From Amycolatopsis bartoniae (GTDB taxonomy: Bacteria > Actinomycetota > Actinomycetes > Mycobacteriales > Pseudonocardiaceae), in contig NZ_JACHWH010000002.1 of assembly GCF_014191255.1 (NCBI RefSeq), forward strand, positions 682,001 to 746,000: 64,000 bases of DNA. The letters are read 5' to 3'. The notes under the pieces are model-generated. The model had not been told where the DNA came from and did not search any database. It saw only the letters and a program-made list of their open reading frames with translations. Below are positions 4,533 through 18,862 of this stretch, piece by piece. A program made the translations under genes and the position numbers. How positions within the stretch are numbered: the first letter of the stretch is position 1; each line of letters starts with the position of its first letter.

Positions 4533-5471
4533 TCATTGAGCTTCGGAAACGTTCTCGGAAACGGTGCAGAGAAGCCGGTTCGGGGTGCCCTGCGGGACGC
4601 CCGTCAGGACGTTCGCCGTGGCGTTCCTGACGAGCGCCGCGGTGACCTCCGCTGGGGTTGCGGACGGGTGCTCGGCGCGGTAGAGGGCTGCCGCGCCCGC
4701 GACGAACGCCGCCGCCATCGAGGTGCCCGACGTGTTCACCGGGCCGGACGGCGAGCTCGACGGGATGTCCACCCCGGGCGCGTACAGGTCGAGGCCCGCG
4801 CCGAAGTTCGACTTCGGCGACACCGCGCCGCTGGAGTCCATCGCGCCCACCGTCAGCACGTCCGGCACGCGGCCGGGCGACGTCGTCGAGACGTCCGCGG
4901 CGTTCCAGCCCGCGGGCACCACCACCGGCATCGCCGCGGCCAGTGTCTGCACCGCCTTGTCGAGCTGGTCGTTCGCGGGGCCGCCGATGCCGAGCACGGC
5001 CACCGCGGGCTGCTTCGCGTTCTGCGCGACCCACCCGATTCCCGAGATGATGTTCAGCAGGTTGCCGTTCCCGCTGTTGTCGAGCACCTTCACCGGAACG
5101 ATGCGCACGCCCTTCGCGACGCCGTACGTCTGCCCGCCGAGGATGCTCGCCAGCCGCGTGCCGTCGCCGTTGCCGTCGGTGGTGTCGGTGTTGCCGTCGA
5201 CGAAGTTCTGCCCCGCTTCGACCCGGGCGCCGAACTCCGCCTGCGTCCCGTCGACACCCGTGTCGATGACGTACACCGTCACCTGGTCGGCCGTCGTGTC
5301 GTAGCGGTAGAGGTGGTCGGTGGCCCCGTCGCGCTGGTCGATGCGATCCAGGCCCCAGCTCGGCGGGTTGTCCTGCCTGCCGGATTCGGCCAGTGCGGGA
5401 GCGGCCGCCGTCAGCGTGGCGGCGACGGTCAGGAGCAACGAGATCGCGGTACGCGCCGGAAACCTGTTCAC
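4533..5471 (-). CDS. Subtilase (S8)-fold secreted protein with catalytic His replaced
   Basis: S8 peptidase-fold protein of 312 residues with a Sec signal peptide (1-28, cleavage after ALA). The Asp motif is intact (VIDTGVDG, Asp70) and so is the Ser motif (NTSGTSMAAAF, Ser251). The His motif, normally NGHGTHVAG, reads NGDGTRLAS, so Asp103 stands where the catalytic His should be and Arg106 replaces the second His. The oxyanion-hole Asn region (usually AAGN) reads PAGWN. On family knowledge the triad is broken, so this is probably a non-proteolytic pseudo-enzyme, perhaps a binding or regulatory protein; an unusual active site cannot be excluded. The start is GTG at 5471. No inhibitor I9 propeptide is obvious, although residues 30-60 could be a short one. 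Confidence 0.88.
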   Translation of the reverse strand: MNRFPARTAISLLLTVAATLTAAAPALAESGRQDNPPSWGLDRIDQRDGATDHLYRYDTTADQVTVYVIDTGVDGTQAEFGARVEAGQNFVDGNTDTTDGNGDGTRLASILGGQTYGVAKGVRIVPVKVLDNSGNGNLLNIISGIGWVAQNAKQPAVAVLGIGGPANDQLDKAVQTLAAAMPVVVPAGWNAADVSTTSPGRVPDVLTVGAMDSSGAVSPKSNFGAGLDLYAPGVDIPSSSPSGPVNTSGTSMAAAFVAGAAALYRAEHPSATPAEVTAALVRNATANVLTGVPQGTPNRLLCTVSENVSEAQ

Positions 5472-15887: not shown

Positions 15888-16544
15888 ATGACCACGCTTT
15901 CGCCGACTCCCCGCAGCACGCTGACCCGCAAGAAGGACCGGGGCGCCACCGACCGCCAGGCCCTCTACGACGTGCTCGACGAGGCCCTGATCTGCCACCT
16001 CGGCCTGGTGCTCGACGGGTCCCCGGTCGTGCTGCCCACCGGGTACGGGCGCGACGGCGACACGCTGTACCTGCACGGATCGACCGGCGCGGGCAACCTC
16101 CGCGCCGCCGCGAAGGGCATCGACGTCTGCGTCACCGTGACCCTGCTCGACGGGCTGGTCTACGCGCGCTCGCTCAACAACCACTCGATGAACTACCGCA
16201 GCGCGGTGGTGCACGGCCGGGCACGGCTCGTGCAGGACGCCGAGGAGAAGATGCACGGGCTGCACGTCGTGACCGAGCACCTGACGCCCGGCTCGTGGGA
16301 TCACGCGCGAGCCGTCAACCCCAAGGAGTTCGCGTCGGTGGCCGTGCTCGCCCTCGGACTGGAGGAGGCGTCGGTGAAGATCCGCGCGGGCGGGCCCGGC
16401 GAGGAGCCGGAGGACGAGGATCGCACCGACATCTGGGCGGGCGTGGTACCGGTCCAGACCACTTTCGGTGCACCCGTGCCCGCGGACTACGTCCCGTCGG
16501 ACATGCGGGTGCCGCCGCACGTCAATCGCGCACGGGCCCGGTGA
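15888..16544 (+). CDS. Pyridoxamine 5'-phosphate oxidase-related flavin-binding protein
   Basis: Split-barrel FMN-binding protein of 218 residues (YDVLDEALICHLGLVLDGSPVVLPTGYGRDGDTLYLHGSTGAGNL). This N-terminal pattern is that of the FMN-binding/PPOX-related family often found under MocR control rather than true PdxH. A GAGGAG ribosome-binding site lies 2 bp from the ATG. Its role may be in vitamin B6 or flavin chemistry, but no substrate can be assigned. The last 23 bp overlap the convergent cysteine dioxygenase gene. Confidence 0.85.
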   Translation: MTTLSPTPRSTLTRKKDRGATDRQALYDVLDEALICHLGLVLDGSPVVLPTGYGRDGDTLYLHGSTGAGNLRAAAKGIDVCVTVTLLDGLVYARSLNNHSMNYRSAVVHGRARLVQDAEEKMHGLHVVTEHLTPGSWDHARAVNPKEFASVAVLALGLEEASVKIRAGGPGEEPEDEDRTDIWAGVVPVQTTFGAPVPADYVPSDMRVPPHVNRARAR

Positions 16545-17001
16545 CCGGGTCGAGGTGGTACGGCCGCATCGCGCGGCCGCCCGCCCGGTAGACGTGGATG
16601 CTGATCGCCGGGTCCGGTCCCTCGTTGCGCACCTGGTGCACGTAGCCGGGGGCGAACACGCGGGACTGCCCGGCGGACAGGTGGTGCAGCTCGGTCACCG
16701 CCCGCCCGTCCGGCGCCCGGCGTGCGACGAGCTCCGACAGCTGCCCGCTCACCACGGTGAACGCGCCGGTGGAGCTCGCGTGGTCGTGCAGGTCGGTGTG
16801 CTGACCGGGCAGCCAGCCCATCAGCCAGACCTCTTCCCGCTCGTCGGCGGCGATGCGGGTGGAGAAGCGCTGGTCGGGGTCGTAGCGGAGCAGGTCGCGC
16901 CAGCGGTCCCGCTCGGCGGCGTACTCCAGGGCGACGCGCACGGGGTGGCGCAGGGAAGACTTCTCGTCGAGCGCGACAGTGTTGTCCGGAACGGCGAACA
17001 T
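16522..17001 (-). CDS. Cysteine dioxygenase type I
   Basis: Cupin enzyme that oxidizes L-cysteine to cysteine sulfinate with a mononuclear iron. The 159-residue protein carries the first metal motif in GQHTDLHDHASSTGAFTV (two His) and the third His in APGYVHQVRN, with Arg and Tyr residues (STRI, HVYRAGG) in the expected places. It begins with ATG at 17001. A short Cys-rich leader ORF ends 54 bp upstream, suggesting cysteine-responsive control. gpsA precedes it on the same strand with a 143-bp gap, enough for an independent promoter. Confidence 0.9.
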   Translation of the reverse strand: MFAVPDNTVALDEKSSLRHPVRVALEYAAERDRWRDLLRYDPDQRFSTRIAADEREEVWLMGWLPGQHTDLHDHASSTGAFTVVSGQLSELVARRAPDGRAVTELHHLSAGQSRVFAPGYVHQVRNEGPDPAISIHVYRAGGRAMRPYHLDPVTGPVRD

Positions 17002-17055
17002 GGCTGCTGGTGTCCTTGGAAAAGAGGGATGGGAAGGGTCGGCCGCTGGGATGGG

Positions 17056-17088
17056 TCAGCGACAGCGACAAGGACACAGCGCGAACAT
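17056..17088 (-). CDS. Cys-rich leader peptide upstream of cysteine dioxygenase (MFALCPCRCR)
   Basis: Ten-codon ORF, ATG at 17088 and TGA at 17056-17058, encoding MFALCPCRCR: three Cys codons (all TGT, a rare codon in such GC-rich DNA) among the last six residues. It sits 54 bp before the cysteine dioxygenase start. A small inverted repeat (arms 17044-17048 and 17057-17061) brackets its stop codon. Cysteine-rich short leaders control sulfur genes by ribosome-dependent attenuation in mycobacteria. Here a plausible reading is that translation of the TGT codons reports charged tRNA-Cys and sets dioxygenase expression. No strong ribosome-binding site is visible, so the leader may be leaderless. 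Confidence 0.6.
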   Translation of the reverse strand: MFALCPCRCR

Positions 17089-17144
17089 GCCGTACAGGAA
17101 ACCAGTGCCGGCCCCGCCCGGCAACCGAATCCCACGAAGTGGAA

Positions 17145-18155
17145 TCAGGACCACTCGTGCTTGTTCTGCCTGCCCAGCAGCTCCGCCCCGGCGCGGCGGG
17201 GGTCGAGCCCCTCGTGGCACACGCGGTGCATCGCGTCGGTGATCGGCATGTCGACCCCACTGGTCTGGGCCAGTTCGCGGATCGACGAGCACGACATGAC
17301 GCCCTCGGCCACCTGGCCGCCCGCCGCGCGCTGCGCCTGTTCGAGCGTCTCGCCGCGGCCGAGGCGTTCGCCGAACGTCCGGTTGCGCGACAGCGGGGAC
17401 GAACACGTCGCCACCAGGTCGCCGACCCCCGCGAGCCCCGCGAACGTCAGCGGGTCGGCGCCGAGTTTCGCGCCCAGCCGGGCGGTTTCGGCCAGTCCGC
17501 GCGTGATGAGCGTGGCCACCGTGTTGGCGCCGTAGCCCATGCCCGCCGCCATGCCGCAGCTGAGCGCGATGACGTTCTTGCACGCGCCGCCCAGCTCGCA
17601 GCCGATGACGTCGGTGTTGGTGTACGGGCGGAAGTACGTGCCGGAACAGGCGCGCTGGATCGCGACCGCGCGCTCGTGGTCGGTGCACGCCAGCACCGCC
17701 GCCGCGGGCTGTTCCTGCGCGATCTCGCGGGCCAGGTTCGGGCCCGACACCACGACGATGTCGTTCTCCGGCGCGCCCGAGATCTCCGCGATCACCTCGC
17801 TCATCCGCTTGAGCGTGCCCAGTTCCACGCCCTTCGCGAGGCTCACGAGGATCGCCCCGGCGGGCAGCAGCTCGCGCCAGCCCGTCAGGTTCGCCCGCAG
17901 GCTCTGGCTCGGCACCGCCAGCACCACGGCTTCGGCGCCGTCCAGCGCCTCCGCCGCGTCGGCGGTCGCGGTCAGGTTGGCGGGCAACCGGATCTCCGGG
18001 AGGTAACCGGCGTTGACGTGCTCGTCGCGGATCTGCGCGGCGACTTCGGGACGGCGCGCCCACATCGTCACGTCGCGGCCCGCGTCGGCGAGCACCTTCG
18101 CGAACGCCGTGCCCCACGAACCCGCCCCGAGCACCGTGATGCGCTGGACGTCCAT
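17145..18155 (-). CDS. gpsA: NAD(P)-dependent glycerol-3-phosphate dehydrogenase
   Basis: Makes sn-glycerol 3-phosphate from dihydroxyacetone phosphate for phospholipid synthesis. The 336-residue protein has the Rossmann motif [19 protein letters not shown], the conserved [17 protein letters not shown] and the substrate lysine region [20 protein letters not shown] 18155 overlaps the plsC-like stop in the sequence TGATG, which supports this start over the GTG one codon earlier. Coupled to a lysophosphatidic-acid acyltransferase gene, it forms a phospholipid-precursor operon. Confidence 0.97.
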
Positions 18156-18862
18156 CACTCGCCGTCCGCCGGCTCCGGCTTCTTCGCCGGTGGCTGCTCG
18201 CCCCGGATTTCGGCCAGCAGGTCGGTGACGCGGTCCATCAGCAGTTCCGTCACCTCGCGCAACACCGCCGCGGTGGGCTCCTGTCCCCGGTAGGCGGACA
18301 GGTCGACGGGCTCGCCGACGCGGTGGGTGATCGTCTTGCGCGGGATGAGGCGGAGCTTCTTGTGGTAGAAGTCCAGGATCTCGTTGGTGCCCCAGCGGGC
18401 GATCGGGATCACCGGCACGTCGCTGCCGAGCGCGAGGCGCGCCACACCGGTGTAGGAGCGCTTGGGCCAGCCGTTGGGGTCCTTGGTGATGGTGCCCTCG
18501 GGGTAGATCACCACGACCTTGCCGTCGCGCAGCGCCTGGTGCGCCGCGCGCAGGCTGTCACCCGCGCTGCTGGAGCCGCGGTAGACGGGGATGCTGCCGG
18601 CGCCGACGAAGATCCGGCCGAAGATCGGCGTGTCCACGAGGCTGCTCTTGCCGAGGAACCGCGGCACCCGCTTCTGCCGGTGCACGAACACCGCGTCGAC
18701 CGCCGGGTCCATGTGGGAGACGTGGTTCATCACCAGCAGGGCCCCGCCTTCGCGGGGAACGCGCTCGCCCCCTTCGTACACACGCCGTGCCAGGTACGTG
18801 ACGGGATAGAACAGGGCGGCGGCGGCTCCGACCCAGAAACCGCCCTTCTCGCGTCCGGACAA
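18155..18862 (-). CDS. 1-acyl-sn-glycerol-3-phosphate acyltransferase
   Basis: PlsC-family acyltransferase that makes phosphatidic acid. The 235-residue protein has a hydrophobic N-terminal segment (about 8-25) for membrane association, the catalytic HX4D box in [12 protein letters not shown], the GSIPVYRG motif II and the YPEGTITKD motif III. The start is TTG at 18862, chosen because AGGAGGAG lies directly before it and the N-terminus matches the family. The Lys/Pro-rich C-terminus is a short tail. It is translationally linked to gpsA by a 1-bp overlap. Confidence 0.93.

Follow-up and report, generated by a model that had tools for sequence, protein, structure and literature searches.

A cysteine-codon leader proposed as a translational attenuator of a putative thiol dioxygenase gene in Amycolatopsis

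Organization of the locus

The window analysed here is a stretch of 64,000 nt from Amycolatopsis bartoniae (contig NZ_JACHWH010000002.1, positions 682,001 to 746,000). It holds a gene for a cupin-type thiol dioxygenase, whose neighbours are gpsA and a convergent pyridoxamine-oxidase-like gene (Table 1). An earlier note on this DNA had described a ten-codon, cysteine-rich ORF with three TGT codons and a stop 54 bp from the dioxygenase start, together with a small inverted repeat at that stop. The sequence bears out both. The ORF, MFALCPCRCR*, reads ATG TTC GCG CTG TGT CCT TGT CGC TGT CGC TGA, and its stop lies 54 nt before the dioxygenase ATG (17001). The leader and the dioxygenase gene share the start sequence ATGTTCGC, an 8-mer that is also common to both starts in the MFALC.. 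short-form relatives examined. An Rfam scan of the window gave no family at the gathering score, and a search of a plasmid collection gave no match.

Table 1. Features of the leader and dioxygenase region (positions in the window)
Feature	Position	Strand	Basis
gpsA, NAD(P)H glycerol-3-phosphate dehydrogenase, 5' of the dioxygenase gene; outside the proposed switch	17145..18158	-	annotation
-35-like box TTGCCG (TTGAC in most relatives), 36 nt upstream of the leader ATG	17119..17124	-	spacing across loci
-10-like hexamer TTTCCT of weak consensus, spaced 17 nt from the -35 box	17096..17101	-	sequence and spacing
Leader ORF MFALCPCRCR*, three TGT Cys codons	17056..17088	-	reading frame and relatives
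Predicted anti-Shine-Dalgarno arm GTGTCCTTG, within the Leu-Cys-Pro-Cys codons	17069..17077	-	complementarity, fold
Small inverted repeat around the leader stop, left arm GTCGCTG	17057..17063	-	fold analysis
Small inverted repeat around the leader stop, right arm CAGCGGC	17042..17048	-	fold analysis
Dioxygenase Shine-Dalgarno arm CAAGGACAC	17010..17018	-	complementarity, fold
Controlled gene: cupin thiol dioxygenase (putative substrate), Pfam CDO_I	16522..17001	-	family search, conserved residues, fold match

Of 80 loci, 78 have a TTGAC box (at most one mismatch) 35-37 nt upstream of a leader start, and in 72 the box is exact, the start having been picked to fit the box spacing. In the null, which counted exact TTGAC only, the box lay 33-41 nt upstream of a random ATG or GTG in 0 of 75 cases. 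A sigma-70 promoter scan found no promoter. The spacing of the box suggests that transcription starts at or beside the leader ATG and that the leader is translated leaderless.

Conservation of the leader and its cysteine codons

The upstream regions of related dioxygenase genes, where the earlier note had proposed to look, keep the short ORF. An ORF with at least two Cys codons among its last eight, ending 40-90 nt before the dioxygenase gene, is present in 76 of 79 named relatives (80 named loci less L062, which lacks upstream sequence) compared with 11 of 337 other genes from the same records and the window. The three exceptions, L112, L113 and L120, have fewer than two Cys codons in that stretch. 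Seven of the 11 control matches are at one gene position in Lentzea, where a Cys-containing short ORF precedes another gene (L115, L121, L126, L131, L132, L134 (around 806-1822) and L136 (325-1819)); this may be a chance ORF shared by descent. When the bases of the 143-nt intergenic region were shuffled 20,000 times, an ORF of this kind with two or more Cys codons appeared in 250 shuffles, and one with three or more in 26. As judged from the sequences, the leader ORF is more than chance, and the decisive evidence is its conservation.

The peptide itself varies. Long forms have 24-32 codons, e.g. MTTRGLMTRRDLRCGAALCPCCCR, and short forms include MFALCPCR, MFALCPCRCR and, in Lentzea, MSFNALCCTRR and MSFNACCCCTWR. 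The middles differ between relatives, and the Cys cluster and the final Arg are kept. Lentzea leaders end in CCTWR, CCTRR or CCCCTWR. Of 80 leaders, 79, that of the window among them, have Arg as their final residue and one has Gln, the procedure that picked leaders having mildly favoured Arg. The nearest named relative by enzyme, A. sacchari, is 91% identical. The ten-codon leader probably arose by shortening of the 24-32 codon leader of other Amycolatopsis, with the start and the Cys codons retained.

The remark in the earlier note that TGT is disfavoured in such GC-rich genomes, and is notable in the leader, agrees with the counts. In the 48 ORFs of the window 16 of 169 Cys codons are TGT (153 are TGC), whereas in the last eight leader codons of the 79 relatives TGT accounts for 225 of 256 (31 are TGC).

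Pairing of the cysteine codons with the dioxygenase Shine-Dalgarno region

The leader Cys codons GTGTCCTTG are complementary to the Shine-Dalgarno (SD) region of the dioxygenase gene, CAAGGACAC, a point absent from the earlier note. To compare true with swapped pairs we used 23 representatives less than 75% identical. Leaders paired with their own SD had a mean Watson-Crick run of 6.96 against 5.96 for swapped pairs (permutation p ~5e-5), and duplex energies differed likewise (p ~4e-4); effects of relatedness are not fully removed from these permutations. The two strands also change in a coordinated way between clades, with CCTTGCTGTCG:CGACAGCAAGG in L109 and GTGTCCTCG:CGAGGACAC in L059. At least four expected pairs between the Cys tract and the SD region are found in 45 of 80 loci, and between the tract and the start or first codons in 12; the two together account for 50.

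The predicted folding energy of the window RNA is -35.2 kcal/mol (z -3.85), and 0 of 200 shuffles were as good. In three leader groups the Cys codons form the 5' side of a helix, and according to the folds these helices could hold the gene off. Sets of loci were chosen by hand: 18 of the CRCCR type for A2, and 17, mostly of the LCPC type, for A3. In the fold model of the window, TGC in place of the first TGT reduces the SD opening cost from 10.7 to 5.3 kcal/mol, and the same replacement at the other two has little effect (9.7-10.7 kcal/mol). The fold model suggests that TGT is preferred partly because the first TGT contributes to SD pairing.

Effect of a ribosome on the leader

We modelled a ribosome with a 28-nt footprint on RNA folded at equilibrium. 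For the longer RNA of the window, the predicted cost of opening the SD falls from 11.5 kcal/mol in the free RNA to 4.8 with the ribosome at the first Cys codon and 4.4 with it at the stop. For RNA beginning at the ATG, the cost falls from 10.7 to 2.1-3.3 kcal/mol with the A site anywhere from codon 2 to the stop. The ten-codon form would be less selective for cysteine because a ribosome just past initiation already opens the SD; the quantity that depends on cysteine would be the dwell time.

Across the 80 loci, the opening cost drops by at least 2 kcal/mol in 30 with the ribosome at the first Cys codon, in 25 with it at the last and in 25 with it at the stop. It rises by at least 1 kcal/mol in two loci at the first Cys codon and in eight at the stop, nearly all of the CRCCR type, the largest rise at the stop being from 5.5 to 10.3 kcal/mol (L073). 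In the fold model of the window the SD is hidden by a structure that a ribosome on the Cys codons disrupts; such a structure is not found in the CRCCR clade.

Exceptions and wider distribution

In a large Amycolatopsis clade with leaders ending in CRCCR the Cys codons are kept and the SD pairing is absent. In this clade and its neighbours (18 loci) the Cys codons and the stop lie within a nearly invariant hairpin upstream of the SD, which is followed by a C/T-rich tract. The hairpin folds with z -1.65 to -2.57 and, being nearly invariant, offers little covariation. Hairpin and tract may form a terminator or nothing.

Among 30 loci of the class, 16 are Streptomyces-like. A poly-Cys leader is present in 14 of these, many ending in Cys; L153 and L156, which have none, were left out of the analyses of 14 loci that follow. 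The tract has 3.4 to 18.5 expected pairs with the dioxygenase start and first codons, and in 11 of the 14 loci a ribosome at the first Cys codon cuts the opening cost by 2 kcal/mol or more. The complementarity of tract and start is within what codon composition gives: the own mean run is 7.93, compared with a mean of 6.91 (maximum 8.5) for codon-shuffled coding sequences and 7.38 (maximum 8.86) for codon-shuffled tracts.

In family f8, probably Mycobacterium, seven of eight loci have a candidate leader ending near CCR or CCG. A loose pattern applied to 40 further loci of the class gave no candidate leader in 25 and a candidate, in some cases possibly by chance, in 15. In other families of the order a leader of the type.W..RR...FD..C precedes dioxygenase homologues (L049, L051, L052, L054, L057 and L199; that of L057 was read by eye from the DNA).

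A second copy of the dioxygenase gene (L040, before position 5267, own genome C1:1408261; and L043) has an apparent leader of its own, read by eye as FWRDRAVDLLLVASCGC. In L040 the leader codons GCTCCTCG match the SD-like CGAGGAGC over 8 bp. A rhodanese gene comes after the second copy in at least 11 of 15 Streptomyces-like genomes, and this neighbourhood was used to orient the dioxygenase paralogues.

The controlled enzyme

The window enzyme, 159 residues long, matches Pfam CDO_I with 58.7 bits. In an alignment of 17 sequences H72, H74, H122 and H136 are invariant and S134 is nearly so; Tyr138 is replaced by Phe in two (L025 and L027). We take these residues to be the His ligands and the Ser-His-Tyr set of cysteine dioxygenase, and the window enzyme combines them with the CDO_I fold.

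The structure model has a mean pLDDT of 88, with residues 1-16 poor. Its best solved match is, by the PDB titles, the ergothioneine dioxygenase of Thermocatellispora tengchongensis (PDB 8qfl-8qfr; sequence E 1e-9, fold E 3e-11, TM ~0.7, 25-26% identity). The next fold matches are the cysteine dioxygenases of Bacillus and rat and 3-mercaptopropionate dioxygenases. The T. tengchongensis enzyme is the nearest in both sequence and fold, but at ~26% identity the substrate of the window enzyme is putative. Destruction of free cysteine is its presumed function only, the nearest solved relatives being ergothioneine dioxygenases. Oxidative degradation of ergothioneine to sulfur dioxide is reportedly (2024) initiated by ergothioneine dioxygenase. 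A PF10017 gene, which we take to be of the EgtD family, is present in 49 of 61 genomes, that of the window included; this does not establish ergothioneine as the substrate.

Comparison with known leaders

Polycysteine attenuators of mycobacteria, encoded by leaderless short ORFs, were described by Canestrari et al. in 2020 (Mol Microbiol 114:93). They are summarised in passages of PMC13236596, PMC9094748 and PMC9031893. They resemble the window leader in being short ORFs with Cys codons close to the stop (here three TGT in ten codons, putatively leaderless). A further likeness is pairing, here predicted, that masks the ribosome-binding site of the downstream gene and would give way to a ribosome on the Cys codons. 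The window leader differs in its target, a thiol dioxygenase rather than a cysteine-supply gene, in its ten codons, in its genus, Amycolatopsis, and in that its response is predicted from folding.

Seliverstov et al. (2005; PMC1262725) placed Cys leaders before cys operons (Mycobacterium, Propionibacterium) and before cbs (Bifidobacterium). The passages of that paper considered here present short ORFs with Cys runs near the stop and no conserved terminator hairpin, as in the window. The leaders in those passages have biosynthetic targets, unlike the window leader, and SD pairing by Cys codons is not described there. Among the literature matches listed (listings and the beginnings of abstracts), a Cys leader before a cysteine dioxygenase gene was not described.

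The NF042934 model (cis_reg_atten, 'putative leader peptide'; cut-off 27 bits) did not match the 32-residue reading of the window leader. Two of five typed long-form leaders of relatives scored 22.7 and 11.1 bits, and three gave no match. Leaders before the same dioxygenase gene in other genera carry RRGHIDLRRVASALCPCR-like sequences, like those of the model.

An NF042934-type leader (C2:411757-411813) precedes what we take to be a sulfite reductase gene or operon in the same genome (L041, C2:409000-417000). Its DLR-motif codons CCTCCGG are complementary to the SD of that gene, CCGGAGG (L041; L168-L185). Over 18 loci of the genus the match is 7 bp in 14, 6 bp in two and none in two, and in nine of the 14 the motif and the SD have changed in step (CTTCCGG facing CCGGAAG, a Leu-to-Phe change). 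These leaders, unlike that of the window, would pair through their DLR/DFR codons, 19-25 nt before the first TGC Cys codon; no SD pairing was found in their last 36 nt, the DLR/DFR pairing having emerged when the whole leader was searched. The 'peptide motif' of NF042934 may be an RNA pairing strand. A second NF042934 leader over the cut-off (L042, C1:101454-101510) lies in the same genome before a 154-codon ORF resembling a membrane protein.

Discussion

We propose that the leader is a cysteine-codon translational attenuator in which the Cys codons close the dioxygenase SD, a dwelling ribosome opens it and most enzyme is made at low cysteine; we give this reading a probability of about 0.65. 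The mRNA would begin at or beside the leader ATG, as the promoter spacing suggests. With the leader empty of ribosomes, the Leu-Cys-Pro-Cys codons would pair with the SD and close the dioxygenase gene, as indicated by the predicted fold and the coordinated changes between clades. Because the anti-Shine-Dalgarno strand lies inside the Cys codons, a ribosome dwelling there is computed to cover it and would open the dioxygenase ribosome-binding site. Dwell on these codons would lengthen when Cys-tRNA is short, so that expression is predicted to be highest at low cysteine. This would put the enzyme among the genes induced when cysteine runs short, which would suit an enzyme that frees sulfur from a thiol and not one that disposes of surplus cysteine.

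Several results weigh against this reading. Only 30 of the 80 loci show SD opening eased by 2 kcal/mol or more with a ribosome at the first Cys codon, the CRCCR clade lacks the SD pairing, and almost any ribosome position opens the ten-codon site, which weakens its specificity for cysteine. The Streptomyces-like complementarity does not exceed codon composition, and 25 of the 40 further loci gave no candidate leader. It would also be odd for an enzyme that destroys cysteine to be induced by low cysteine.

The earlier note had placed attenuation at this leader with a reversed logic, in which fluent translation at high Cys-tRNA favours expression and surplus cysteine is destroyed. The idea of attenuation gains support from a conserved Cys-codon leader and its likeness to the mycobacterial design, but the fold model points the other way on the sign: in the window it is dwell on the Cys codons that is predicted to open the SD. 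The sign proposed earlier is probably wrong on this model, and we regard the reversed logic as unlikely. It agrees with the textbook role of cysteine dioxygenase, which is to dispose of surplus cysteine. Frequent translation could also keep the gene on, any ribosome on the ten codons opening the SD, and a leader ribosome does raise the opening cost in those few relatives, mostly of the CRCCR type, described above. After a fluent pass, however, the anti-Shine-Dalgarno strand of the window would be free to close the SD, and ribosomes paused at Cys codons would open it longest. Among the window folds examined for the present model, we noticed no structure that ribosome stalling would favour and that would shut the SD. 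Control at the level of transcription, with the leader deciding through Rho or a terminator how far RNA polymerase goes and with SD pairing secondary, is a rather poor prospect. The 54-nt spacer after the leader stop is rich in C (27) and poor in G (8), the CRCCR hairpin is followed by its C/T-rich tract, and passages of PMC1262725 give weak predictions of Rho sites for mycobacterial cys leaders. Against this, a scan of 16450-17300 found no intrinsic terminator on the minus strand, one weak terminator-like site being on the plus strand only, and no GC hairpin with a U-run was found between the leader and the dioxygenase gene.

In the tryptophanase operon the TnaC leader requires specific residues of the nascent chain and free tryptophan, and such arrest peptides generally depend on particular internal residues. 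The window leader, like TnaC, carries codons for an amino acid that its controlled enzyme presumably breaks down, and a nascent ..CPCRCR chain might pause the ribosome at the stop when free cysteine is high and so keep the SD open. The final Arg in 79 of 80 leaders, even with the mild bias of the picker, would fit such an arrest, as would the opening of the window SD by a ribosome at the stop (4.4 against 11.5 kcal/mol in the free RNA). The remaining residues vary, as the Lentzea endings and the many Streptomyces-like leaders ending in Cys show; unlike TnaC, window-type leaders have in common upstream of the stop only the Cys cluster and the final Arg, and we think an arrest peptide very unlikely. 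Least credible, to the point of being highly improbable, is an ordinary leaderless upstream ORF whose Cys bias has no regulatory meaning, or the relic of a once useful leader. The ten-codon form does lack the middle of the longer leaders, and such ORFs arise in ~1% of base shuffles, but conservation in 76 of 79 relatives against 11 of 337 controls, the TGT excess and the coordinated SD changes are at odds with it.

The interest of a cysteine-codon attenuator at this gene lies in the mismatch between its predicted sign and the presumed function of the enzyme. Control through ribosomes that sense cysteine would then reach beyond sulfur supply, to a gene presumed to act in the opposite direction. 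Base pairing may also be part of the reason why rare TGT codons persist in such leaders. With ten codons and one helix, the design is simple enough for full dissection. Either an unseen factor reverses the sign, or the enzyme label is wrong and thiol oxidation recovers sulfur; a sulfur-releasing role could reconcile the predicted sign with the function of the enzyme. Tentatively, and as a possibility we consider well short of even odds, Actinobacteria may use Cys codons as the sequestering strand before a thiol dioxygenase that mobilises sulfur from an internal thiol reserve at low Cys-tRNA, for example from ergothioneine with release of sulfite. The 'cysteine dioxygenase' label would then be wrong for this branch, and the enzyme would belong to the response to low cysteine.
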